Assembly (NCBI GenBank): GCA_013178415.1
Contig: JABLXA010000004.1
Span: 62,001-126,000, forward strand
Source: Bacillota bacterium
Lineage (GTDB): Bacteria; Bacillota; SHA-98; Ch115
Length of the DNA: 64,000 nt
Direction of reading: 5' to 3'
Part shown: piece after piece, positions 7,649 through 44,165 of the stretch
How positions within the stretch are numbered: position 1 is the stretch's first letter
Layout of the letters: the number at the start of each line of letters is the position of its first letter
Translations under genes and position numbers: made by a program
The notes under the pieces: generated by a model
Seen by the model: only the letters and a program-made list of their open reading frames with translations
What the model was told of the DNA's origin: nothing
The model's database searches: none

Positions 7649-8632
7649 ATGGCTAAGAAAGATGTCGTTCTTCAGGTTAAGGATCTAACGCTGGCATATA
7701 TGACTCCGAGGGGGGCTCTCCGCGCTGTTGATCATGTCGCCGTTGATGTTTATTCCGGGGAGGTCCTGGGGATCGTAGGCGAGAGTGGGTGCGGGAAATC
7801 ATCGCTGGCTTTTGCGCTGATAAAGCTGCTGCCTTCCTCGGCCCGAATTGAATCAGGGCAGATATTCTATGGCGGCAAGGACATCATCTCCGGGATGGAC
7901 GGCCCATCTCTGCGAAAATTCCGGTGGCAGGAGATTTCAATGGTGTTTCAATCGGCACTGAACACCCTCAATCCTGTTATGAGAATAGGGGAGCAGATAC
8001 AGGACGTGGTCCAGGCGCACCTTCGCCTTTCCCAGGCCGAAATATATGATAAGGCCGCTCGTCTTCTGGAATGGGTATATTTGAATCCTACCAGAGTCTG
8101 GAGGGCATATCCTCATGAATTGAGCGGTGGGATGCGGCAGAGGGTTGCCATAGCTCTCAGCCTGATACTGGATCCCAAAGTGGTAGTCCTGGATGAACCT
8201 ACCACGGCTCTCGATGTGATCAGCCAGGAGATCATCCTCAGGATTCTCACCAGGATTCACCGTGAGATGAACATCTCCATGATATTCATCACCCATGATC
8301 TTTCTTTGGTTGCGCGAGTAGCGGAGAGGGTCGCAGTGATGTATGCGGGAAAGATAGTGGAGATAGGGACCTCAGAGGAGGTATTCTATTCCCCCAGGCA
8401 CCCTTATACAATGGGCCTCTTGAAAGCGATACCTTCTACAGTAGGCGATCTCCGCAAACTTGAACCTATTCCAGGCTCACTCCCGGATCTCATCGAACCG
8501 CCCCCGGGTTGTCGTTTCAGGCCTCGATGCAATTTCGCCACGAAAGCCTGTAAGAAAGGCGAGCCAGAACTGATTCGTATAAATGAATCACATCAAATAG
8601 CATGTTTCAACTGGAAGGGAGCGGGACGCTGA
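7649..8632 (+). CDS. Oligopeptide-type ABC transporter ATP-binding protein (OppD/DppD-like)
   Basis: ATPase subunit of a peptide/nickel/opine ABC importer. Walker A (GESGCGKSS) is near residue 44, the Q-loop at MVFQ, the signature LSGGMRQR near 155, Walker B VVVLDEPTTALD, and the switch histidine in FITHDLS. The C-terminal OppD-type domain with PPPGCRFRPRCNFA supplies the cysteines that bind an Fe-S cluster in several relatives. The ATG at 7649 follows GGAGG by nine bases; an ATG at 7610 overlapping the permease stop is less likely. The ligand cannot be inferred because the binding-protein gene is absent from the window. Confidence 0.9.
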   Translation: MAKKDVVLQVKDLTLAYMTPRGALRAVDHVAVDVYSGEVLGIVGESGCGKSSLAFALIKLLPSSARIESGQIFYGGKDIISGMDGPSLRKFRWQEISMVFQSALNTLNPVMRIGEQIQDVVQAHLRLSQAEIYDKAARLLEWVYLNPTRVWRAYPHELSGGMRQRVAIALSLILDPKVVVLDEPTTALDVISQEIILRILTRIHREMNISMIFITHDLSLVARVAERVAVMYAGKIVEIGTSEEVFYSPRHPYTMGLLKAIPSTVGDLRKLEPIPGSLPDLIEPPPGCRFRPRCNFATKACKKGEPELIRINESHQIACFNWKGAGR

Positions 8633-9636
8633 TGAATTCTAACATGCCTTTGCTGCAATTTAGACGGGTTACAAAGCGTTTTCAGACCCCAAAGAGCAAA
8701 GAGAATAGGAAGGGCATAATAACGGCCCTGGATGGGGTTTCTTTGGATCTCTATAAAGGTGAAATCCTGGCGCTGGTGGGTGAAAGCGGCTGTGGGAAGA
8801 CAACTCTGGGGAAGATCGCGGTGGATCTTGTCCGCCCTGATGGTGGAGATGTCCTGTTTGAGGGAGAAAGTATCTATGGTTTCAGGAAGTCCAGGTATCT
8901 GAAGTATCGTCGCAGTGTGCAGATGATCCATCAAGATCCGTACGCGGCATTGAATCCCATGCGGACAATTCTTCAGACCTTAAGCGCGCCCATAGAGCAA
9001 TACAAGCTGGCATCCGGACGCAGCGGCGTACTTCATAAAGCCGAGGAGCTTTTGAGGGTGGTGGGGCTCGAACCGCCTGGTGACATTCTGGGTAAGTATC
9101 CACATCAGTTGAGTGGTGGGCAGAGGCAACGCGTGGTCATTGCCCGGTCCATCTCTTTGAATCCATCGGCGATTGTGGCTGATGAAGCTGTTTCTATGAT
9201 AGATGTCTCACTGAGAGTCGGGATTCTCAATCTCATGATGAAGCTGCGTGAAGAATTAGGCATAGCATATCTATTCATCACTCATGATCTTGGAATTGCG
9301 CGCTACTTCGCCCAAGGGAACAGGATTGCCATAATGTATCTTGGCAGCATCATGGAGGCCGGGCCCACGGAGGAAGTGATCAATTCTCCCATACATCCTT
9401 ATACGAGAGCTCTTCTCACCGCGGTTCCTGTCCCTGATCCGCGAAGAGCCCGCGTCGAGAGACCACTTCCACTGAAAGAAGCAGAGATTTCAGGTCATTT
9501 CATGCCATCCAATAGATGCAGGTTCGAGCCCAGGTGCATCTATGCCACGGATGCCTGCAAAGAAGGCGCTCCTGTTCTCCGGGAGATTATGCCGGGAAGG
9601 CACGTAGCGTGTATTAGAGCTGATGAAATAGGGTAG
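8632..9636 (+). CDS. Oligopeptide-type ABC transporter ATP-binding protein (OppF/DppF-like)
   Basis: The second ATPase of the importer, starting at an ATG that overlaps the OppD-like stop (TGATG). Walker A GESGCGKTT, signature LSGGQRQR, Walker B AIVADEAVSMID and the H-loop FITHDLG are all present. The C-terminal Cys region RCRFEPRCIYA matches the OppF family. The Walker B stretch reads ADEAVSMID where most family members have DEPVSALD; this DEAVSMID variant also occurs in true members, so it does not argue for inactivity. Together with the OppD-like protein it would energise a transporter whose membrane part is broken here. Confidence 0.9.
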   Translation: MNSNMPLLQFRRVTKRFQTPKSKENRKGIITALDGVSLDLYKGEILALVGESGCGKTTLGKIAVDLVRPDGGDVLFEGESIYGFRKSRYLKYRRSVQMIHQDPYAALNPMRTILQTLSAPIEQYKLASGRSGVLHKAEELLRVVGLEPPGDILGKYPHQLSGGQRQRVVIARSISLNPSAIVADEAVSMIDVSLRVGILNLMMKLREELGIAYLFITHDLGIARYFAQGNRIAIMYLGSIMEAGPTEEVINSPIHPYTRALLTAVPVPDPRRARVERPLPLKEAEISGHFMPSNRCRFEPRCIYATDACKEGAPVLREIMPGRHVACIRADEIG

Positions 9637-10283: not shown

Positions 10284-11027
10284 CTATTTACGTCCCCCAT
10301 GCGCGGCTCTTCTTTTCTTTAGCTCTTCGCAAAGGGCGGAAAATGGTATATCTTGGGACGCCAGCGCCACCAGGGAATGATACCAAAGGTCAGCCAGCTC
10401 GGCAACGATGTCGCTGGATATCCCGTTTTTCGCTGCGATGATGAACTCCCCGGATTCTTCCCCGACCTTCCTCAGGATCCGGTCGAGGCCAGATGCCATA
10501 AGCCGCGAGGTGTAGGACCCCTCGAGCGGATTTTCTTTTCTGTCCTTGATCACGTCGTAAAGCTCATCGAGTATCCGGGCAGGCGAATCCGGATAGACAG
10601 GCGAATCCGAATGGGCAGGTGAATCCAAAGGATGTGCGGCGGCGCCGACCGCCTCATTTTCCTCTATTTCGAATTCACCACGTTCATTCAATCTCCTATA
10701 AAAGCAGGAAAAGAAGCCATCATGGCATGCCACCCCGGCCTGTTCGACATTGATGAGCAGGGTATCTCTATCGCAGTCCGCGCGAATCTCTTTTACCAGC
10801 TGGTAATGCCCGGAGGTCTCGCCTTTGAGCCAGAGGCTCTGGCGTTTGCGGCTCCAAAACCACGTCTTGCCGGTCTCCAGAGTTCTCCGCAGCGCCTCCT
10901 TGTTCATATATGCTACCATGAGCACGCATCCGGTCTTATGATCCTGAATCACAGCCGGAATCAGCCCGTCCGGCGAAAAGACCAGCTGAGACAAGATCTC
11001 ATCGCGCAATGGTTTCGAATTCTCCAC
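10284..11027 (-). CDS. hisIE: Bifunctional phosphoribosyl-AMP cyclohydrolase / phosphoribosyl-ATP pyrophosphatase
   Basis: Catalyses steps 2 and 3 of histidine synthesis. The N-terminal cyclohydrolase domain (residues 1-130) has [30 protein letters not shown] and the zinc-binding DCDRDTLL and CHDGFFSCF motifs. The C-terminal pyrophosphatase domain (about 150-247) has [20 protein letters not shown] and the ADLWYH helix. Between them is a linker containing three copies of a six-residue DSPxxx unit, an 18-bp minisatellite at DNA level. The GTG start has AAGGA ten bases upstream, and the gene follows hisF by 21 bases. It is the last gene of the his operon. Confidence 0.95.
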
Positions 11028-11048: not shown

Positions 11049-11804
11049 TCAGAGCCTCACTGGTATGCCCTTATCTCTCAAATACTCCTTAACCTGGCGG
11101 ACCCGAAACATGCCGTAGTGAAAGACCGAGGCAGCCAGGGCCGCGTCTGCCAGTCCTTGGGTAAGTACCTGATAGAAATCTTCCAGCTTCCCGGCCCCTC
11201 CAGATGCAATAACCGGAATATCCACTGCTTCCGCCACTTCCCTGGTTATGGCAATGTCATAACCTTCCTTGACTCCATCTGTGTCCATACTGGTGAGAAG
11301 TATTTCACCAGCGCCCAATTCTTCAACTTTTCGAGCCCATTTCACAGCATCTATTCCTGTCGCGTTCCGGCCCCCATGTGTGAAGACTTCCCAATGGTCA
11401 TTCACCCGTTTGGCATCTATGGCTACGACAATGCACTGGCTTCCGAATTTACGGGCTCCCTCGGAAATAAGGCTGGGATCGCGCACTGCCGCGGTATTGA
11501 TGGAGACTTTGTCTGCCCCAGCCCGGAGGAGAGTTCCGATGTCATCGGTGTTTCGGATACCTCCTCCAACAGTGAATGGAATGAAGACTTGGGAAGCGAC
11601 ATCTCTTGCCACATCTACAATGGTGCTCCGGTCCCTCCAGGAGGCTGAAATATCTAAAAAGACCAGCTCGTCCACGGACTCATCATTGTAAAATTTCGCA
11701 AGTTCCGTGGGCGAACCTGCGTCTCTCAATTTCTGGAAATGTATGCCTTTTACTACTCTACCATCTTGGACATCCAGGCAGGCTATGATTCTCCTTGCAA
11801 GCAT
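11049..11804 (-). CDS. hisF: Imidazole glycerol phosphate synthase cyclase subunit
   Basis: A 251-residue (beta-alpha)8 barrel that joins ammonia from HisH with PRFAR to give imidazole glycerol phosphate and AICAR. Catalytic aspartates lie in [10 protein letters not shown] (residue 11) and VVAIDAKR. The two phosphate-binding sites are TVGGGIRN and VIASGGAGK. The ATG at 11804 is preceded by AGGGGTGAG; a longer frame to 11891 reads into repeat DNA and is not likely to be translated. In this genome the matching glutaminase is fused to HisA instead of being a free protein, so HisF must recruit HisH through that fusion. Confidence 0.95.
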
Positions 11805-11919: not shown

Positions 11920-12060
11920 ATGGACACCCGTGCCGCCATGGCGGCACCATCGGGGCCGCAAAATAACGCCCGCTATTTACTGGATAGACCCCCATGCTGC
12001 TGTCGCAGCGCCGTCAGAAGGATGGAAATCCCCCGAAGCGGACCCCACTATTTTCTGGGT
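11920..12060. repeat. Two copies of a dispersed palindromic repeat, one entering hisA
   Basis: Two adjacent copies of an approximately 65-85 bp repeat lie here. Its core is GTGCCGCCATGGCGGCAC (11930-11947), a perfect palindrome in the first copy and a worn one (ATGCTGCTGTCGCAGCGCC) in the second. Flanks read TAGACCCCCATG on one side and GGATGGAAATCCCCC then CTATTTTC on the other. Further copies lie at 27.36-27.80, 29.74, 44.10 and 62.07 kb. The second copy supplies the last 20 or so codons of the HisH-HisA gene. Confidence 0.8.
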
Positions 12061-13623
12061 AGCCGCAAGAACATCCTGGAGGGTCAGATCCTTCGTATAG
12101 AGTGCCCGCCCTATGATCATACCAGTGATCCTCCCGGGGAGCGCTTCTGATTCCCTTGCGGCCAATGCTATTTGTTTTACATGCGCAAGGTTTGCTATAC
12201 CCCCAGATACTATCGTGTCGACGCCCATTCGCGCGACAGCCATGGCATGATCGAGATTTGGTCCCTGCATTGCCCCATCTCGCCGTATATCCGTCACTAT
12301 CGTCTGCCGTATACCCAGAAGCTTTAGAGCCCTGACAACGTCCTCGATGGTCCGGCCTGTGTCACGCTGCCATCCGTCCACCGCCACTTGGCCATCTCTG
12401 ACATCTATTGCGGCGATGATCTTGCCGTCGAACCGGTCGACCAGCTGGCTTATCAATTCTGGCGAATTGAGAGCGGCGGTGCCGACGATGGCCCATGAAA
12501 CGCCTGCTTCAAATGCCTTCGCCACACTCTCAAAAGTCCTCAACCCGCCGCCTAATTCTATCTTGACGCCCGGCACAGCGCTGGCCATTTCTTTTATCAG
12601 CGGAAGGTTGACCGGCTCCCCGGCCGCTGCGCCGTCTAGATCTACTATATGAATTCTTGACGCCCCTTGAGAGGCCCAGAATGACGCTATTGCAACAGGA
12701 TCTTCCGAGAATACCGTCTCTTTGGAGAAATCCCCCTGAAACAGGCGCACACATTTCCTCCGCCTGATATCAATGGCAGGGATGACTTCAAGGTATCCAT
12801 CTTCAGGAGCGCCTTTATGGATTTTCTTGAAATCGCTCCCGGCGCAGTGTACCGAAACTGAGGGAGGCGATTTAACTGAGACAGGCGCTTTGCACAATCC
12901 GATTGAGGCAGGGGCCTTGCACAATCCGATGAAATTGGACAAAAGAGATAGCCCCACGCTGCCACTTTTCTCTGGGTGGAATTGGACACCGAATACAGAC
13001 CCCTTGCAGACCGCCGAAGGGAAATTCACAGCTGGAAGCGCCACACTGGTGGAGGAGAGATCCTGTGAGCAGCGTGTTTCCCCAGAGATTTCAAATCCAT
13101 ATGTAGTCATCCCAACTTCAACATCGGCTTCATCCGGCACAGCATAGTATGAGTGAGCGAAATAGAAATAGGAATCGTCCGGGATTGTATCCAATAGCTT
13201 ACATTCTCTCCGGATCTTTACTTGATTCCAGCCCATATGGGGGACTTTGGGCGCCTTTACCGGCAAGATGTGAGTTATGGCATCATCGAATTCAAATCTC
13301 CTCACCGAACCCTTTATAACTCCGAGACCCTCAGTCCATTGAGACTCTTCGCTTCTTTCAAACAGCAGCTGCATTCCAAGGCATATCCCAAGGACAGGCT
13401 TGCCGCTCGCCAGAAATGATCTGACTGTTTCATTAAGTCCGCTATTATGCAGGAAGTCCATGGCTTCCCCGAACGCTCCGACGCCAGGGAGGATGAGCCC
13501 GTCCGCCGCGGCCACCTGTTCCGGATCACTGGTGATGGTAGCTTCAGCCCCAAGGCTTTGCAGCGCCTTCTTGACGCTGGTGACATTCCCTATCCCGTAA
13601 TCTAAAATGGCTATCATGATCAT
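11977..13623 (-). CDS. hisHA: HisH-HisA fusion: IGP synthase glutaminase joined to ProFAR isomerase
   Basis: A single 548-residue frame. Residues 1-231 are HisH, the class I glutaminase, with GICLGMQ (nucleophile Cys81) and FGVQFHPEKS (His216, Glu218). A roughly 16-residue insertion precedes the last motif. Residues about 232-277 are a linker with a duplicated nine-residue unit, GLCKAPASI then GLCKAPVSV. HisA starts at EVIPAIDI (catalytic Asp near 284) and carries TDIRRDGAMQGPN (second Asp) and DTIVSGGI. No start codon or ribosome site precedes HisA, so it must be made as the fusion. The final 20 residues come from the dispersed palindromic repeat. RBS AAGGA precedes ATG 13623; ATG 13617 is possible. 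Confidence 0.93.
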   Translation of the reverse strand: MIMIAILDYGIGNVTSVKKALQSLGAEATITSDPEQVAAADGLILPGVGAFGEAMDFLHNSGLNETVRSFLASGKPVLGICLGMQLLFERSEESQWTEGLGVIKGSVRRFEFDDAITHILPVKAPKVPHMGWNQVKIRRECKLLDTIPDDSYFYFAHSYYAVPDEADVEVGMTTYGFEISGETRCSQDLSSTSVALPAVNFPSAVCKGSVFGVQFHPEKSGSVGLSLLSNFIGLCKAPASIGLCKAPVSVKSPPSVSVHCAGSDFKKIHKGAPEDGYLEVIPAIDIRRRKCVRLFQGDFSKETVFSEDPVAIASFWASQGASRIHIVDLDGAAAGEPVNLPLIKEMASAVPGVKIELGGGLRTFESVAKAFEAGVSWAIVGTAALNSPELISQLVDRFDGKIIAAIDVRDGQVAVDGWQRDTGRTIEDVVRALKLLGIRQTIVTDIRRDGAMQGPNLDHAMAVARMGVDTIVSGGIANLAHVKQIALAARESEALPGRITGMIIGRALYTKDLTLQDVLAATQKIVGSASGDFHPSDGAATAAWGSIQ

Positions 13624-13739: not shown

Positions 13740-14378
13740 TCAAAGCACGCCTTTAGTTGACGGTATGGATGTTCTGCGGGTATCTAGAGATACGGCCTCC
13801 GCCAGCGCCCTTCCAAAACCCTTGAATATGGCCTCGATGATGTGATGCGTATTCTTTCCGTATATTAGATTGATATGCAGCGTAACCCTTGCATTCCGGA
13901 CGAAACCCATGAAAAATTCCTCGATGACCTCTGTATCCATGTCGCCCACCTTTTCTCTTTGCAGGGGAACGTTGTAGACAAGATGACTCCTTCCACTTAT
14001 ATCGATGGCCTCACTTACAAGGGCCTCGTCCATGGGAATCTGGACGCTGCTGAATCTCCTTATTCCAGCTCGATCTGAGAGAGCCTTATCAACGGCCTGT
14101 CCGAGACAGATGCCGACATCCTCGACGAGATGATGGAAGTCAACCTCCACATCTCCTTCCGCTTTAATAGACAGATCAAACAGGCCATGGGCGCCCATCA
14201 AAGTCAGCATATGGTTCAAAAAACCGCACTGGGTATCAATTGAGACCACGCCTGATCCATCCAGGTCGATCTCAACTCCCACCTTGGTCTCGGAAGTTTC
14301 ACGTCGTACTTTTGCCGAACGACAGATTTCCATGGCTTCCATTGGCATTCGGCGCAAGATGTCCTCCGGTTTGTTCAA
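13740..14378 (-). CDS. hisB: Imidazoleglycerol-phosphate dehydratase
   Basis: Catalyses step 6 of histidine synthesis (imidazole glycerol phosphate to imidazole acetol phosphate). The duplicated metal-binding motifs are present: GFLNHMLTLMGAHG with DFHHLVEDVG in the first half, and the second repeat KNTHHIIEAIFKGFG. The usual bacterial length is about 195 residues, and this frame has 212. The annotated TTG at 14378 gives a short N-terminal extension; an ATG at 14348 or 14342 may be the true start, since the conserved part begins at RSAKVRRETSET. The protein is monofunctional, with no histidinol-phosphatase domain, and no histidinol-phosphatase gene was seen in this operon. Confidence 0.95.
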   Translation of the reverse strand: MNKPEDILRRMPMEAMEICRSAKVRRETSETKVGVEIDLDGSGVVSIDTQCGFLNHMLTLMGAHGLFDLSIKAEGDVEVDFHHLVEDVGICLGQAVDKALSDRAGIRRFSSVQIPMDEALVSEAIDISGRSHLVYNVPLQREKVGDMDTEVIEEFFMGFVRNARVTLHINLIYGKNTHHIIEAIFKGFGRALAEAVSLDTRRTSIPSTKGVL

Positions 14379-14477: not shown

Positions 14478-15605
14478 TTATCTCAATCTGGATAGAGCCT
14501 CGAGAAATACATCATTGTCCTCTGGTCTCCCTATGGTCACCCTCAGGTACTGCGATATGTCAAGAGCTCCAGGGGCCAGATCATGCGGCCTTGCAAACTT
14601 TCGCACCCAGACTCCGGAATCGAGCAATCTCCTATAAGCCTCGTCCGCCGGAAGGGGAGGCCGGAGGAGAAGGAAATTGGAGGAGGAAGGGAATACCTCG
14701 ATCCCAATCTGGAGAAGGCCGGCATATAATCGTTGCCTTTCCTTCTTTATCTCTTCCACGACTCTCAAGAGCTCATCCTGGTGACGCAAGATCATCTGGG
14801 CTGCCAGTATGGAAATAGAACTGCAGTTATACGGCAATTTCACCAGGTCCAGCTGTTCCGCCACCGCTGGCGCCATGATCCCGTAACCCATCCGTAGACC
14901 AGCAAGCCTCAGAGCCTTTGAGAAGGTGCGGAGAATGATGATATTGCCGCTCGATATATTTTCTTCGTCTCCTGGCCTCGCAGCCTCATTGAGGAGGGCC
15001 CCGCCTTCACCCCCTGGCCTCGCAACCTCATCAAGGAGGGTTTCACCGCAAAAATCGTAATATGCCTCATCGATCACCACGAGTCCCTTGGCTTCGCGGG
15101 CAAGCGTCCTGAATTCCTCGGTGTAGGCGCCGCCATTTGGGTTATTGGGATTGCAGAGGAACGCAAGCGAGGCATCATCAGAGAGTTCCTCCTGGAGCCT
15201 TTTCATATCGAGTGTGAAGCCTTCGCCAAACGGGACCTCCACCACTGGTATGCCAACGGATTCCGCAATCCGGCGATACATGGTGAAGGAAGGATAAAGT
15301 GTGATCACCTTCCTGGCTCTTTGTCTCCAGGCGAGTATGATCATCTGGAGCAGCTCATCAGAACCTACCCCGACGACTACCATATTCTCAGTGACTCCGA
15401 GCCTTTGCGACAGGTCGCGTCTGAGTTCATCTGCGTTCTCAGACGGGTACCTGTTGAATGGGAGCCTCAAGATCGCCTCGGCGATTTCGCGTTTGATGTG
15501 TAATGGAACGTCGTATGGACTCTCATTGGCGTTGAGCCTTATGAGAGGTGTCCGGCTATATTCAAGGGCCGCATCCGCAGCCTTGCCAAATGCATAGGAA
15601 GACAT
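14478..15605 (-). CDS. hisC: Histidinol-phosphate aminotransferase
   Basis: A PLP-dependent fold-type I aminotransferase that converts imidazole acetol phosphate to histidinol phosphate. It has LNANESPYDVP near the start, FLCNPNNPNG, IDEAYYDF and the PLP-lysine motif RTFSKALRLAGLRMGYG. Between the DEAYYDF segment and the lysine motif sits an insertion of about 30 residues made of a 14-residue unit repeated twice (LLDEVARPGG... then LLNEAARPGD...), a 42-bp duplication at DNA level. The ATG at 15605 lies one base past the hisD stop and uses GAGGCGAG inside hisD as its ribosome site. Confidence 0.95.
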   Translation of the reverse strand: MSSYAFGKAADAALEYSRTPLIRLNANESPYDVPLHIKREIAEAILRLPFNRYPSENADELRRDLSQRLGVTENMVVVGVGSDELLQMIILAWRQRARKVITLYPSFTMYRRIAESVGIPVVEVPFGEGFTLDMKRLQEELSDDASLAFLCNPNNPNGGAYTEEFRTLAREAKGLVVIDEAYYDFCGETLLDEVARPGGEGGALLNEAARPGDEENISSGNIIILRTFSKALRLAGLRMGYGIMAPAVAEQLDLVKLPYNCSSISILAAQMILRHQDELLRVVEEIKKERQRLYAGLLQIGIEVFPSSSNFLLLRPPLPADEAYRRLLDSGVWVRKFARPHDLAPGALDISQYLRVTIGRPEDNDVFLEALSRLR

Positions 15606-15606
15606 G

Positions 15607-17037
15607 CTAACTCGCCTCATTTCCTCTGCTGCCCGCCATAGATTCATCAGGGTGTGAATCTTGCGTCATAGACTCATCGGGGCGTGAACCCTGCATCATA
15701 GACTCATCTGAGCGTGGATCCTGCTTTGTATCTTTCGCTGAATTGTCCTGGCATTGAATCGCGCCTATGGAATCGAGCCGTATTCTCATTGAATTCGCAT
15801 GGGCAAACAGGCCCTCGGTTTCAGCAAGCTTTATGGCATAGGGGCTTGCCTTCGCTAGATTTCTGGGGCTATACTTCACCACATTTATTGGTTTCAAAAA
15901 GTCCAGGCACCCCAGTGTCCCCCGGTACCTGGCGCAGCCCAACGTCGGCAGCACATGATTCGGACCGGCGACGTAATCTCCAATAGGTTCGGGACTATAA
16001 TGTCCAAGGAATATCGTCCCCGCGTTCCTGATCTTCTCTAGAAGTGCCATGGGGTCGGCTACCAAAAGCTCCAGATGCTCCGGGGCGTATTCATTTGAAA
16101 TCTCAATAGCCTCACCCATCGACGAGACCTCAACTGCCCCGCCATTTTGCGTGAGAGCCTTGATGATGACTTCACGCCTTGGCGCATTCCGCGTCTGCTT
16201 TTCGACTTCCGCGTCCACGAGATCCGAAAGGCCGGCTGCAGTAGTGATAAGAACAGCTGAAGCGAGTTCGTCATGCTCCGCCTGGGAGAGCATGTCCGCC
16301 GCCACAAAAGCTGGATCGGCGGTATCGTCGGCCAGTATGAGAATCTCGCTCGGCCCGGCCAGCATATCGATTCCGACGTCTCCATATACGAGCTTTTTGG
16401 CAGAGGTTACAAACGCGTTGCCTGGACCTACGATCTTGTCGACCCTCGGCACGATGTCAGTCCCATATGCCATCGCCGCGATAGCCTGAGCCCCGCCCAC
16501 CTTGAAAATCTTATCTACACCGCAAATATCGGCGGCCACCAACACGAAAGGATTGATTTCCCCATTTTTGCCGGGCGGGGTGCACATTATTATTTCCTCG
16601 ACCCCGGCGACTCGAGCCGGTATAGCCGTCATCATAACAGTGGAAGGGTAGGCGGCTTTGCCGCCAGGTGTATAGATGCCTACCCGCTTCAGCGGCGCCA
16701 TTCTCTGTCCAAGGAATCCATCGCCATCAAGTTCCATTGTCCAGGAGGCGATGGGCTGGCGTTCATGGAAAGCCTTGATGTTTTCGAAAGCGAACATCGC
16801 CGCATCCATGAATTCCCTGTCGACAACGGCGCGGGCACGCATGATCTCATCTCTTGATACCTGGAGCCCTTCCATATCCAGTGAGATGCCATCAATCTCA
16901 TGGGAAAGCTCAATCAGAGCCCGGTCCTTATAGGTTCTGACCCGATCTATTATCTGCCGGGCGACAGTTTCCTGCAGATCAAAGCGATTCTGTCTTCGTG
17001 ACAGGAGTTCGCTGGCGGAAAGCCTGGGGATCATCAT
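15607..17037 (-). CDS. hisD: Histidinol dehydrogenase with minisatellite tail
   Basis: Zinc and NAD-dependent enzyme for the last two steps of histidine synthesis. It contains VGIYTPGGKAAYPS, KVGGAQAIAAMAYGT, DKIVGPGNAFV, AGPSEILI, LSQAEHDELASA (a zinc-ligand region) and NEYAPEHLEL. The canonical protein would end near residue 430. Here a further 45 residues form a hydrophilic tail with three 10-residue units (QDPRSDESMM, QGSRPDESMT, QDSHPDESMA). The start overlaps the hisG stop by four bases (ATGA). Confidence 0.95.
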   Translation of the reverse strand: MMIPRLSASELLSRRQNRFDLQETVARQIIDRVRTYKDRALIELSHEIDGISLDMEGLQVSRDEIMRARAVVDREFMDAAMFAFENIKAFHERQPIASWTMELDGDGFLGQRMAPLKRVGIYTPGGKAAYPSTVMMTAIPARVAGVEEIIMCTPPGKNGEINPFVLVAADICGVDKIFKVGGAQAIAAMAYGTDIVPRVDKIVGPGNAFVTSAKKLVYGDVGIDMLAGPSEILILADDTADPAFVAADMLSQAEHDELASAVLITTAAGLSDLVDAEVEKQTRNAPRREVIIKALTQNGGAVEVSSMGEAIEISNEYAPEHLELLVADPMALLEKIRNAGTIFLGHYSPEPIGDYVAGPNHVLPTLGCARYRGTLGCLDFLKPINVVKYSPRNLAKASPYAIKLAETEGLFAHANSMRIRLDSIGAIQCQDNSAKDTKQDPRSDESMMQGSRPDESMTQDSHPDESMAGSRGNEAS

Positions 17038-27354: not shown

Positions 27355-27800
27355 GTGGCCATTTTCATCCGTCCGATGGTGCCGCCGCAGCGGCATGGGG
27401 GTCTACTTTGAAAATAGCTGAGCGCCATTTTCATTTTTCGTTGGTGCCGCCGTGGCGGCATGGGGGTCTACCCTTAAAATGAGCTACCCTTAAACCCACT
27501 TTCCGCATGTATAGTTTACCAAATGGCGTCGTAGCGCGGTTTATGGCCGATCAGAAAATTGTGAAAGGGTTAAGTCGAAATTTTATGCAAACTTTCGAAC
27601 CTAGGTAGCATCGGTAATTGTAGACTGGAATATTCTACATGCAAAATATGGGCTTAAAATGAGCTGCCGCTGTTTTTACGCTCCTGATGGTGCCGCCATG
27701 GCAGCATGAGGGTCTGCCACTGAAAATAGCGGGGGCCGCTTCGGGGGATTTTCATCCTTCTGCTGGTGGTGCCGAGGTAGCATGGGGGTCTACCGAGAAA
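27355..27800. repeat. Cluster of four palindromic dispersed repeats
   Basis: Copies lie around 27355-27415, 27420-27480, 27660-27725 and 27735-27800. Each has TTTTCATCC or similar, then GGTGCCGCC(n)GCGGCATG and GGGGGTCTACC. They are in the opposite orientation to the copies at 11.9 and 29.7 kb. The stretch between 27480 and 27660 shows nothing recognisable. Confidence 0.7.
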
Positions 27801-29734: not shown

Positions 29735-29825
29735 CAAAGTAGACCCCCATGCCGCTCCGGCGGCACCATCAGGGGGATGAAAATCTCCCGAGGAGGGCGC
29801 CGCTATTTTCGGGGCAGCTAGCTAT
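29735..29825. repeat. Palindromic dispersed repeat copy
   Basis: GTAGACCCCCATGCCGCTCC then GGCGGCACCATC and GGATGAAAATCTCCCG, matching the copy at 11.98-12.06 kb. It ends at the stop of the lipoprotein gene. Confidence 0.7.
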
Positions 29826-41029: not shown

Positions 41030-43258
41030 TTACTTATATGCGTTTACCGCTTCTTTCAACTCGGAGATGATCTCTGCCGCTCTCTGTGCAGCTTCACCCG
41101 AACCATTTGCCTTCGCCAGTTGACTGATGAGGGCGCTTCCCATTATGACCGCATCTGCAAATCGGGCTACTTCCCGAGCTTGGTCAGGATTGGAGATCCC
41201 GAACCCTACCGCGAGTGGAAGGTCTGTATGTTTCCTCACTCGCTCCACCAGCGGGATCAATCCATCAGATAATTGAGCCCGTGCGCCGGTCACCCCTGTT
41301 ACGCTTATGCAGTAAACAAAACCGCTTCCGCCGGAAAGAGCCAGGGCCAGCCGCATTTCCGGCGTCGTAGGCGCCACAAGAGGTATCCAGGCAAGTCCGT
41401 ATATTTCGCACATATCCAAGAGTTCACCCGCCTCTTCCCTCGGAAGATCGGGCACCAAGATCCCATTATATCCTGAATCCGCCGCCTCCTTGGCGAATTT
41501 GGCAATTCCCCGGTGGAATACGGGATTATAGTAGGTGAACGCTATAAGGGGAACATCGGCTTTTTGCCGTATTGCGCGTCCTATCTCCCATGCTTGTTCA
41601 ATGTGAAACCCGCCTGCCAGGGCTCTCTGGCTCGCAGCTTGGATAACAGGGCCATCTGCCAGGGGGTCGGAGAATGGGAAGCCAATTTCGATGGCATCTG
41701 CACCAGCATTTGCAACGGCCACCGCAACCGCGATGGTGGTGGAAGGATCAGGATCTCCTGCTGTGATGAATGGGATCACTCCCTTGCCACCGGTTTCCCT
41801 GAGTTTACGCAGGTGCCTTTCTAGCCTCGCCCCAGGAAGATCAGATGAATGTGAGGCTGTCGCAATCCGCGATTCTTCCGGCTTTTCGAGTGAAGCAGGG
41901 GGACTGGTTATGCGAGAGATCGAGGTATATGGGGCGGACGTCCATGCCGTCGGGACGGCTCCGCCGGAGAGTTGGAAAGCCCCTGAAGCCCCCGAAGCCC
42001 CCACAGCTCCCGAAGCCCCCTGGGAGGACCCGAGTCGGTCCATTTCTTTTCTCTCCAGGATCGCAGCCACTGTCTCGACATCCTTATCTCCGCGCCCTGA
42101 CAGGTTGACGATTATGATGGCGTTCTTATCGATATACCTTGCGAGTCCGGGAAGGTAGGCCAGTGCATGCGCGCTCTCCAGAGCCGGTATGATTCCCTCC
42201 GTCTCTGTAAGCAAGCGAAATGCCATGAGAGCCTCTTCATCGGTGACAGCTACATATTGGGCGCGCCCTGTCTCTTTGAGATATGCATGTTCCGGCCCTA
42301 CCCCGGGATAGTCCAGGCCTGCTGAAATCGAATGGGCAATCTGTACCTGGCCGTCATCATCTTGCAGCAGAAATGAAAGGGAACCATGGAGAATTCCCTT
42401 TGTCCCGGCGGTGAGGCTCGCAGCATGTCTCTTTGTGTCTATTCCTTCACCCGCTGCTTCCACTCCGATCATCTGCACGCCCTCGTCATGCAAGAATGGG
42501 TAGAACAAGCCTATCGCATTGGACCCTCCGCCAACGCAAGCCACGAGGTAGTCAGGCAGACATCCTCTCTCTTTCAAGATCTGTTCCCGCGCCTCTATTC
42601 CGATCACCGATTGAAAATCCCTGACCATACGTGGATAGGGGTGCGGCCCTACAACTGAACCTATTACATAATGGGTGGTTTCCACATTGGTAACCCAATC
42701 GCGGATCGCTTCGTTGGTGGCATCCTTGAGGGTCTTCGAACCTGAAGAGACCGGCGTCACCTCAGCCCCCAGGAGGCGCATCCTGAAGACATTGAGAGAT
42801 TGACGCTTCATATCTTCTTCTCCCATATATACCCTGCATTTGAGCCCAAAGGCCGCGGCAACCGTTGCCACTGCGACTCCGTGTTGTCCTGCGCCAGTTT
42901 CTGCGATTATGCGCTTCTTTCCCATCCTCACTGCAAGCAACACCTGACCTAGGGCATTGTTGATCTTATGAGCACCGGTATGATTCAGATCTTCTCTCTT
43001 GAGATACACGTTTTTCAGCCCTAGACGTTCCCCTAGCCGGCGAGCATGATAGAGGGGAGTCGGGCGGCCGCTATAATCCTGCTCATACACACGGAGTTGC
43101 TGCTGGAAATCAGGATCATTGATTGCCTTTTCATAGGCGGCCTCTAATTCCGCCAGTGCCGCCATCAATGTCTCCGGCACAAATCTTCCCCCGTAGGGTC
43201 CAAAACGTCCCGAACTATCGGGAACAGCAGTCTTCATCTTGGGTATTGCCATTTTCAT
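41030..43258 (-). CDS. trpBA: TrpB-TrpA fusion: tryptophan synthase beta and alpha chains in one protein
   Basis: A 742-residue fusion with the beta subunit first. TrpB occupies about 1-410: [34 protein letters not shown] with the PLP lysine near residue 98, [15 protein letters not shown] near the end. The linker (about 412-485) is low-complexity with Gly/Ala/Ser repeats from a 9-bp minisatellite. TrpA follows: [34 protein letters not shown] with catalytic Glu and Asp, and [13 protein letters not shown]. Fungal fusions have the opposite order, alpha then beta. The start at 43258 follows GGAG and overlaps trpF by 44 bp. Confidence 0.95.
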
Positions 43259-44045
43259 TCTCTCCTTCAAGATCTTTAAACGCTTTTTTCGCCGTCGCAA
43301 CAAAATCCCGTATCAAGCCGGGATCTTTGCGCCCGTCTATTTCCACCCCCGAGGATACATCCACGCCCCAAGGCTTCACCTTTGCTATAGCATCCGCTAC
43401 ATTAGAAGGTTTAAGGCCGCCTGCCAGGATGATCTTTTTGTCATGAAACCTTCTTACGATTGTAGCGGCTATGTCGTGATCGGCTGAAATGCCAAGCCCT
43501 CCGCTTCCAGCCGGGCTCCATGTATCAAGGAGAATCAGAATTCCCTCGTTATCCGCACCAGATCCTGACGCACCAGATCCTGAACTAGATCCTGAGCCAG
43601 ATCCGCGGCCCCAGGAAGCTCGCGTCCCTGGGGAGCGCAGAAAACATGGCGTCGCAGCGAATTCTTCGATGGCCCGCGCCAAGGCTCCGTTAGATACGAT
43701 CTGACTATAGGGCTCAGACCCCGAGGGAATCCCAAATGACCTGATCACTCTGAAACCCGAGGCCCGGAGCCTGCGGCATAGGTCAAGATCCCCATAATCA
43801 TGAAGTTGAATGGTATCTAGATGAGACTCTTCAAGGGCTTCCAATATCTCCTCCTCCGGTTGCCCGCGGAAAACCCCCACCTTCCATATTCCCGTGGGTA
43901 TATCAGACGAGAGTTCTTTCACTTTGGAAGGCGTCACATAGCGGCGGCTATTCGGAACCATGACAAATCCTATTGCATTCACTCCGGCTTCAAGGGCAGC
44001 CTCCAGAGCGACAACGTCTCTGATCCCACAGATCTTGATCCACAT
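43215..44045 (-). CDS. trpF: Phosphoribosylanthranilate isomerase with Gly/Ser insertion
   Basis: The (beta-alpha)8 isomerase of tryptophan synthesis step 3. It has [20 protein letters not shown] (catalytic Cys), [25 protein letters not shown], and [29 protein letters not shown] with the catalytic Asp. The insertion at about 141-168 is a Ser/Gly-rich stretch ([18 protein letters not shown]) in the place of a loop, encoded by a 12-15 bp repeat. The 3' end overlaps the TrpBA gene by 44 bp. The canonical enzyme is about 205 residues and this one is 276. Confidence 0.92.
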
Positions 44046-44084
44046 GAATATTCACCATCCATATGCCCGCTCATCTACCCCCAA

Positions 44085-44165
44085 AATAGTAGCGCCCTCT
44101 TTGTGGGAGTTTATTCCATCTGATGGCGCTGCGACAGCAGCATGGGGGGTTACATGAAAAATCGT
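44085..44165. repeat. Palindromic dispersed repeat copy between trpF and trpC
   Basis: CCATCTGATGGCGCTGCGAC then AGCAGCATGGGGGGTTACATG, a worn copy of the 65-85 bp palindromic repeat. It ends just before the trpC stop. Confidence 0.6.

Follow-up and report, generated by a model that had tools for sequence, protein, structure and literature searches.

A fused hisH-hisA gene in the histidine operon of a Bacillota bacterium

Results

The window, i.e. the whole 64,000-nucleotide stretch of Bacillota DNA that was analysed, carries on its minus strand histidine biosynthesis genes in the order hisD, hisC, hisB, hisHA, hisF, hisIE, where the names hisD and hisC rest on sequence inspection and the others on HMM matches. 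The hisHA gene (11977..13623, minus strand) is a single open frame with HMM matches for both domains; it runs from an ATG at 13623 (MIMIAILDYG...) to a TAG stop at 11977-11979, and its product has 548 residues, with a mass estimated from this length at approximately 59 kDa. The his genes around it, including its upstream neighbour hisB (13740..14378, minus strand; PF00475) and its downstream neighbour hisIE (10284..11027, minus strand; PF01502 and PF01503), are all intact. As the original prediction had it, HisF is encoded beside the fusion by an intact gene of its own (11049..11804, minus strand; 251 aa), which scores 366.6 bits against TIGR00735, over the cut-off of 294.55.

The fused protein comprises four parts, all read from the minus strand. 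The HisH domain (residues 1-233; 12925..13623), the class-I glutaminase of IGP synthase, is defined by its motifs, by pLDDT values mostly above 90 and by a TIGR01855 match of 221.8 bits (cut-off 105.4). It is followed by a 45-codon spacer containing no stop (residues 234-278; 12790..12924), with two in-frame TTG codons and a pLDDT of approximately 30 at residues 247-274, then by the barrel domain (residues 279-530; 12034..12789) and by a C-terminal tail (residues 531-548; 11980..12033; pLDDT <50) derived from a dispersed repeat. The barrel belongs to the HisA/HisF type (PF00977, His_biosynth, 224.6 bits; cut-off 23.6). With TIGR00007, the HisA model, it scores 224.8 bits, approximately 4 below the equivalog cut-off of 228.95, and with the HisF model only 64.7 bits, i.e. 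far lower. In a tree it joins the HisA proteins of four other genomes (G001, G008, G009, G127) with support of 100/100. Despite the TIGR00007 shortfall, it is filed as HisA, the ProFAR isomerase, on the sequence-based criteria of motifs, tree position and operon context. A genome-wide search gave no second hisH or hisA, and the fused copies are thus the sole ones. The prediction that HisH is joined to HisA, rather than to HisF, is therefore upheld by HMM matches within one open frame and by the weak HisF score of the barrel; the HisH-HisA fusion is real.

Around HisH residues 180-200 (window approximately 13025-13090, minus strand) there is an extra loop of approximately 20 residues, which is predicted to be disordered and is absent from most relatives; the HisH of one of them, G009, has a different insert at this position. 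We considered whether the barrel might be PriA, the bifunctional HisA/TrpF, and rejected this identity; TrpF has its own gene in the window (at about 43296-44036), so the HisA need not be bifunctional. The TrpF region (window about 43250-44090, minus strand) has a Gly/Ser-rich in-frame insert in the middle of the domain.

The residues expected for catalysis are complete, in agreement with the original prediction. On alignment to HisH chains in the PDB, the HisH domain keeps the PGVG, GICLG and HPEKS motifs, with the catalytic Cys-His-Glu residues and the oxyanion strand all present. The PAIDI, AIDVRDG, VTDIRRDG, SGGI and IIGRALY motifs of the HisA domain match those of HisA relatives, and include the catalytic Asp residues and the phosphate-binding motifs. 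The separate HisF keeps D11, D130, R5, E46, D98, K99 and E167, which we take to be the active-site, ammonia-gate and HisH-interface positions of the Thermotoga maritima IGP synthase. The residues thus give no sign, as far as sequence can suggest, that the activity of HisH, HisA or HisF, or the docking of HisH on HisF, was lost.

At the junction, two tandem 27-nt copies (12877..12930, minus strand), in frame and 89% identical, duplicate the end of HisH (IGLCKAP[AV]S). If the hisH stop once closed the 27-nt unit, both copies now have sense codons there (AAG, AAA). Within the linker, the two TTG codons (first bases 12924 and 12897) are the only standard starts in frame with HisA; both lie inside the repeated segment, and neither is preceded by a Shine-Dalgarno-like sequence. 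The proposal that HisA has no start codon of its own is accordingly not strictly correct. If the sequence is accepted as it stands, the product must be a fused one. It may be that some HisA is also produced free, either by initiation at an internal TTG or through proteolysis of the linker, the predicted disorder of which makes it likely to be protease-accessible, and that the fused protein is then not the principal working form; given the lack of Shine-Dalgarno-like sequences before the TTG codons, we regard this as unlikely. The codon usage of the linker, tried as proof of the frame, did not discriminate (3.05 for frame 0, 1.78 for frame 1), and comparison of the linker with the spacer and HisA extension of the same-family relative G001 gave scores no better than those of shuffles.

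In-frame repeats occur elsewhere in the operon. Short repeats, arranged in tandem or nearly so, are found in four genes, namely in the hisIE linker (10580-10626), the hisHA linker (12877-12930), hisC (14963-15040) and the C terminus of hisD (15634-15723); their lengths of 18, 27, 42 and 30 nt are all multiples of three, and every one is in frame. A dispersed repeat family has copies at 11980-12080, 27361-27468, 27674-27800, 29740-29818 and 44075-44148, and more elsewhere in the genome; one copy provides the final hisA codons and the stop.

Five relatives belonging to the same order or class were examined (G001, G002, G003, G008, G009), and in all of them hisH and hisA are separate but adjacent. 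In G001 (same family) and in G008 and G009 (same class), hisA is frame-shifted relative to hisH and begins at the hisH stop or shortly downstream of it; in G002 and G003 (same order), the two genes are in one frame with stops between them. The HisA of G001 (locus L116, about 7878-8721) seems to begin right after the hisH stop, with an N-terminal extension of approximately 40 residues and no ATG or GTG nearer to its core. In a neighbouring family of the same class (f3; G004-G007, G010-G016), most genomes lack a clear match to HisH or HisA, a pattern which suggests, at the level of sequence matches, loss of histidine synthesis.

Separate genes at the same site in relatives had been put forward as an observation that would count against the fusion. 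This arrangement was found in all the relatives examined, and shows a recent origin of the fusion in the window lineage rather than an artefact, since an independent fusion kept through another family (below) shows the architecture to be viable.

An assembly or sequencing error, in which a base dropped immediately ahead of the HisA core would join two separate genes, was considered with the fusion's genus being represented by one genome and the junction known from one strain. When every single-base change in the junction was tested, inserting one base at offsets 126-134 was found to give hisH a stop and HisA an ATG start, as would be consistent with the frame shift in the close relatives. Such an error, however, must fall within about nine positions that include no long homopolymer, and would leave HisH with a 45-residue tail that is absent from relatives; every neighbouring his gene is intact, and the same architecture is conserved elsewhere. 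In our judgement an error is very unlikely.

In a sample of 398 genomes from the phylum, at least one other clean open HisH-HisA frame was present among the matches listed, in G271, a member of a family from another class (f114). The fusion occurs in all three f114 genomes examined (G271, G399 and G400, from two genera), at loci L133, L154 and L155, in frames of 498, 545 and 538 residues, with linkers of approximately 12 residues (NFACAVGRAAGATDFFLPAID, NFVWAVARSRKAADFVLPAVD and NFGAVVKQAARAPQFFVPAID) and with hisF downstream as a separate gene. A sequencing error is implausible for f114 because the fusion is kept across two genera. In the HisA tree as in the HisH tree, the fused state has to change twice, and the window genome was joined with f114 in none of the bootstrap trees. 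On this evidence, the HisH-HisA architecture recurs and is conserved within a clade. The f114 and window fusions have the same domains in the same order, with hisF separate and downstream, and differ in being of independent origin and in their linkers, the f114 linker being approximately 12 residues and predicted helical, that of the window approximately 45 residues and predicted disordered.

Other candidates were rejected. G020 (locus L145; G020:C12:27500-31500) has a 412-codon open frame comprising a HisH fragment and HisA, in which the HisH start lies in another frame and the C-terminal end of HisH is missing or shifted; this frame probably reflects assembly errors or a damaged gene. The other long frames picked out in the phylum sample, in G160, G234, G257, G342 and G346, and stop-separated pairs such as those in G279 and G051, are not open HisH-HisA frames. 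There was no open HisH-HisA frame among the 80 loci of a named collection, a set biased by its search patterns.

The AlphaFold model of the window protein (mean pLDDT 86.5, pTM 0.53) has two confident domains joined by a disordered linker (pLDDT approximately 30), with no fixed orientation between them; that of the G399 fusion (mean pLDDT 90, pTM 0.89) has a defined domain orientation and a helical connection. The single domains of both models superpose well on solved HisA and HisH structures. Yeast HisHF is the best match of both by E-value, with whole-chain TM-scores of 0.33-0.39 and rmsd values of 20-22 Å, a comparison limited for the window model by its lack of a defined predicted domain orientation. 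HisA and HisF are homologous barrels, so HisH might dock on the fused HisA in the way that it docks on HisF in HIS7, giving a HisHF-like enzyme. Such docking is absent from both models, neither of which fits yeast HisHF overall, and a separate HisF with HisH-facing residues is present; packing of HisH on HisA in the HIS7 manner is thus not predicted, and we consider it very unlikely. The predicted arrangement would still allow HisH to bind the separately encoded HisF.

Discussion

The overall evidence favours, as the likely interpretation, a real and recent fusion of adjacent hisH and hisA genes to give one 548-residue protein, in which HisH still serves HisF and HisA is tethered. Loss of the hisH stop, with the two frames coming into register beside a hisA that was already adjacent, is the probable origin of the fusion. 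HisH would then dock on the separate HisF as usual and hydrolyse glutamine, with ammonia passing through the HisF barrel, while HisA, carried on a flexible linker of approximately 45 residues, would make PRFAR near HisF, its consumer. If PRFAR transfer gains at all, it would do so through a higher local concentration and not through a tunnel. The most secure consequences are a fixed 1:1 ratio of HisH to HisA and, provided that HisH binds to HisF, a HisA recruited to the IGP synthase; local enrichment of PRFAR is plausible, and direct channelling in a HisA-HisH-HisF complex, as originally suggested, is no more than possible with a linker predicted to be disordered. A large partner at the C terminus is, as the fusion suggests, tolerated by HisH, which presumably still serves the separate HisF.

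The main rival has the same anatomy as the best explanation and differs from it only on the benefit of the tether, i.e. the frames were joined by chance and the product tolerated, in a genome whose genes acquire in-frame repeats and tails, with the enzymes working independently and equal dosage being the only benefit. The linker is itself a tandem repeat, in-frame tandem repeats are present in HisIE, HisC and HisD, TrpF carries its Gly/Ser-rich insert and the HisA tail comes from a dispersed repeat, all of which is consistent with a neutral origin, as is the predicted disorder of the window linker, which would leave the domain arrangement unfixed. Arguing in the other direction, the f114 fusion is retained across two genera and its short linker is predicted to be ordered. 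We give a neutral fusion somewhat less than an even chance; since the two readings overlap on the anatomy, our confidence in one does not exclude the other.

A stronger proposal is that the fusion arose at least twice since HisA, HisH and HisF act as one assembly, with the tether keeping the enzyme that makes PRFAR on the IGP synthase and passing PRFAR on locally. We hold this to be doubtful; if true, it would lend the long-proposed hisBHAF metabolon direct genetic support.

The closest known counterpart is HisHF/HIS7, the fused IGP synthase of eukaryotes and of some bacteria and archaea (PMC1963479, PMC11237513; PDB 1jvn, 1ox4, 1ox5, 1ox6), which, like the window protein, has an N-terminal HisH and a (β/α)8 barrel of the HisA/HisF family in approximately 550 residues. 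By contrast, the barrel of the window protein is HisA, the preceding enzyme, with HisF separate, and its predicted domain arrangement differs. The window protein does not belong with HisHF/HIS7 on the identity of its barrel (64.7 bits with the HisF model; HisF encoded separately), nor is 1jvn-like docking predicted (whole-chain TM-score 0.33-0.39 for both models, the orientation in the window model being undefined).

Reported fusions of his genes include hisA/hisF, hisIE, hisHF, hisNB and hisIED, hisH-hisA not being among those surveyed (PMC1963479), and in Archaea hisHF and HisA/F-HisIE (PMC11237513). In the open-licence literature, the only literature searched, no described HisH-HisA fusion was found. 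The hisIE, hisNB and hisIED (HIS4) fusions resemble that in the window in joining adjacent his genes, and concern other enzymes (PMC1963479); unlike them, the window fusion touches the hisBHAF core. This core has been proposed to form a metabolon, without experimental proof (PMC1963479, PMC10138114), and a HisB-H-A-F or HisA-HisH-HisF metabolon is discussed as unproven (PMC10138114, PMC8305728). Having arisen on two occasions, with a flexible linker in the one and a short, ordered linker in the other, the HisH-HisA fusion offers natural proteins with which to test the HisB-H-A-F metabolon proposal.
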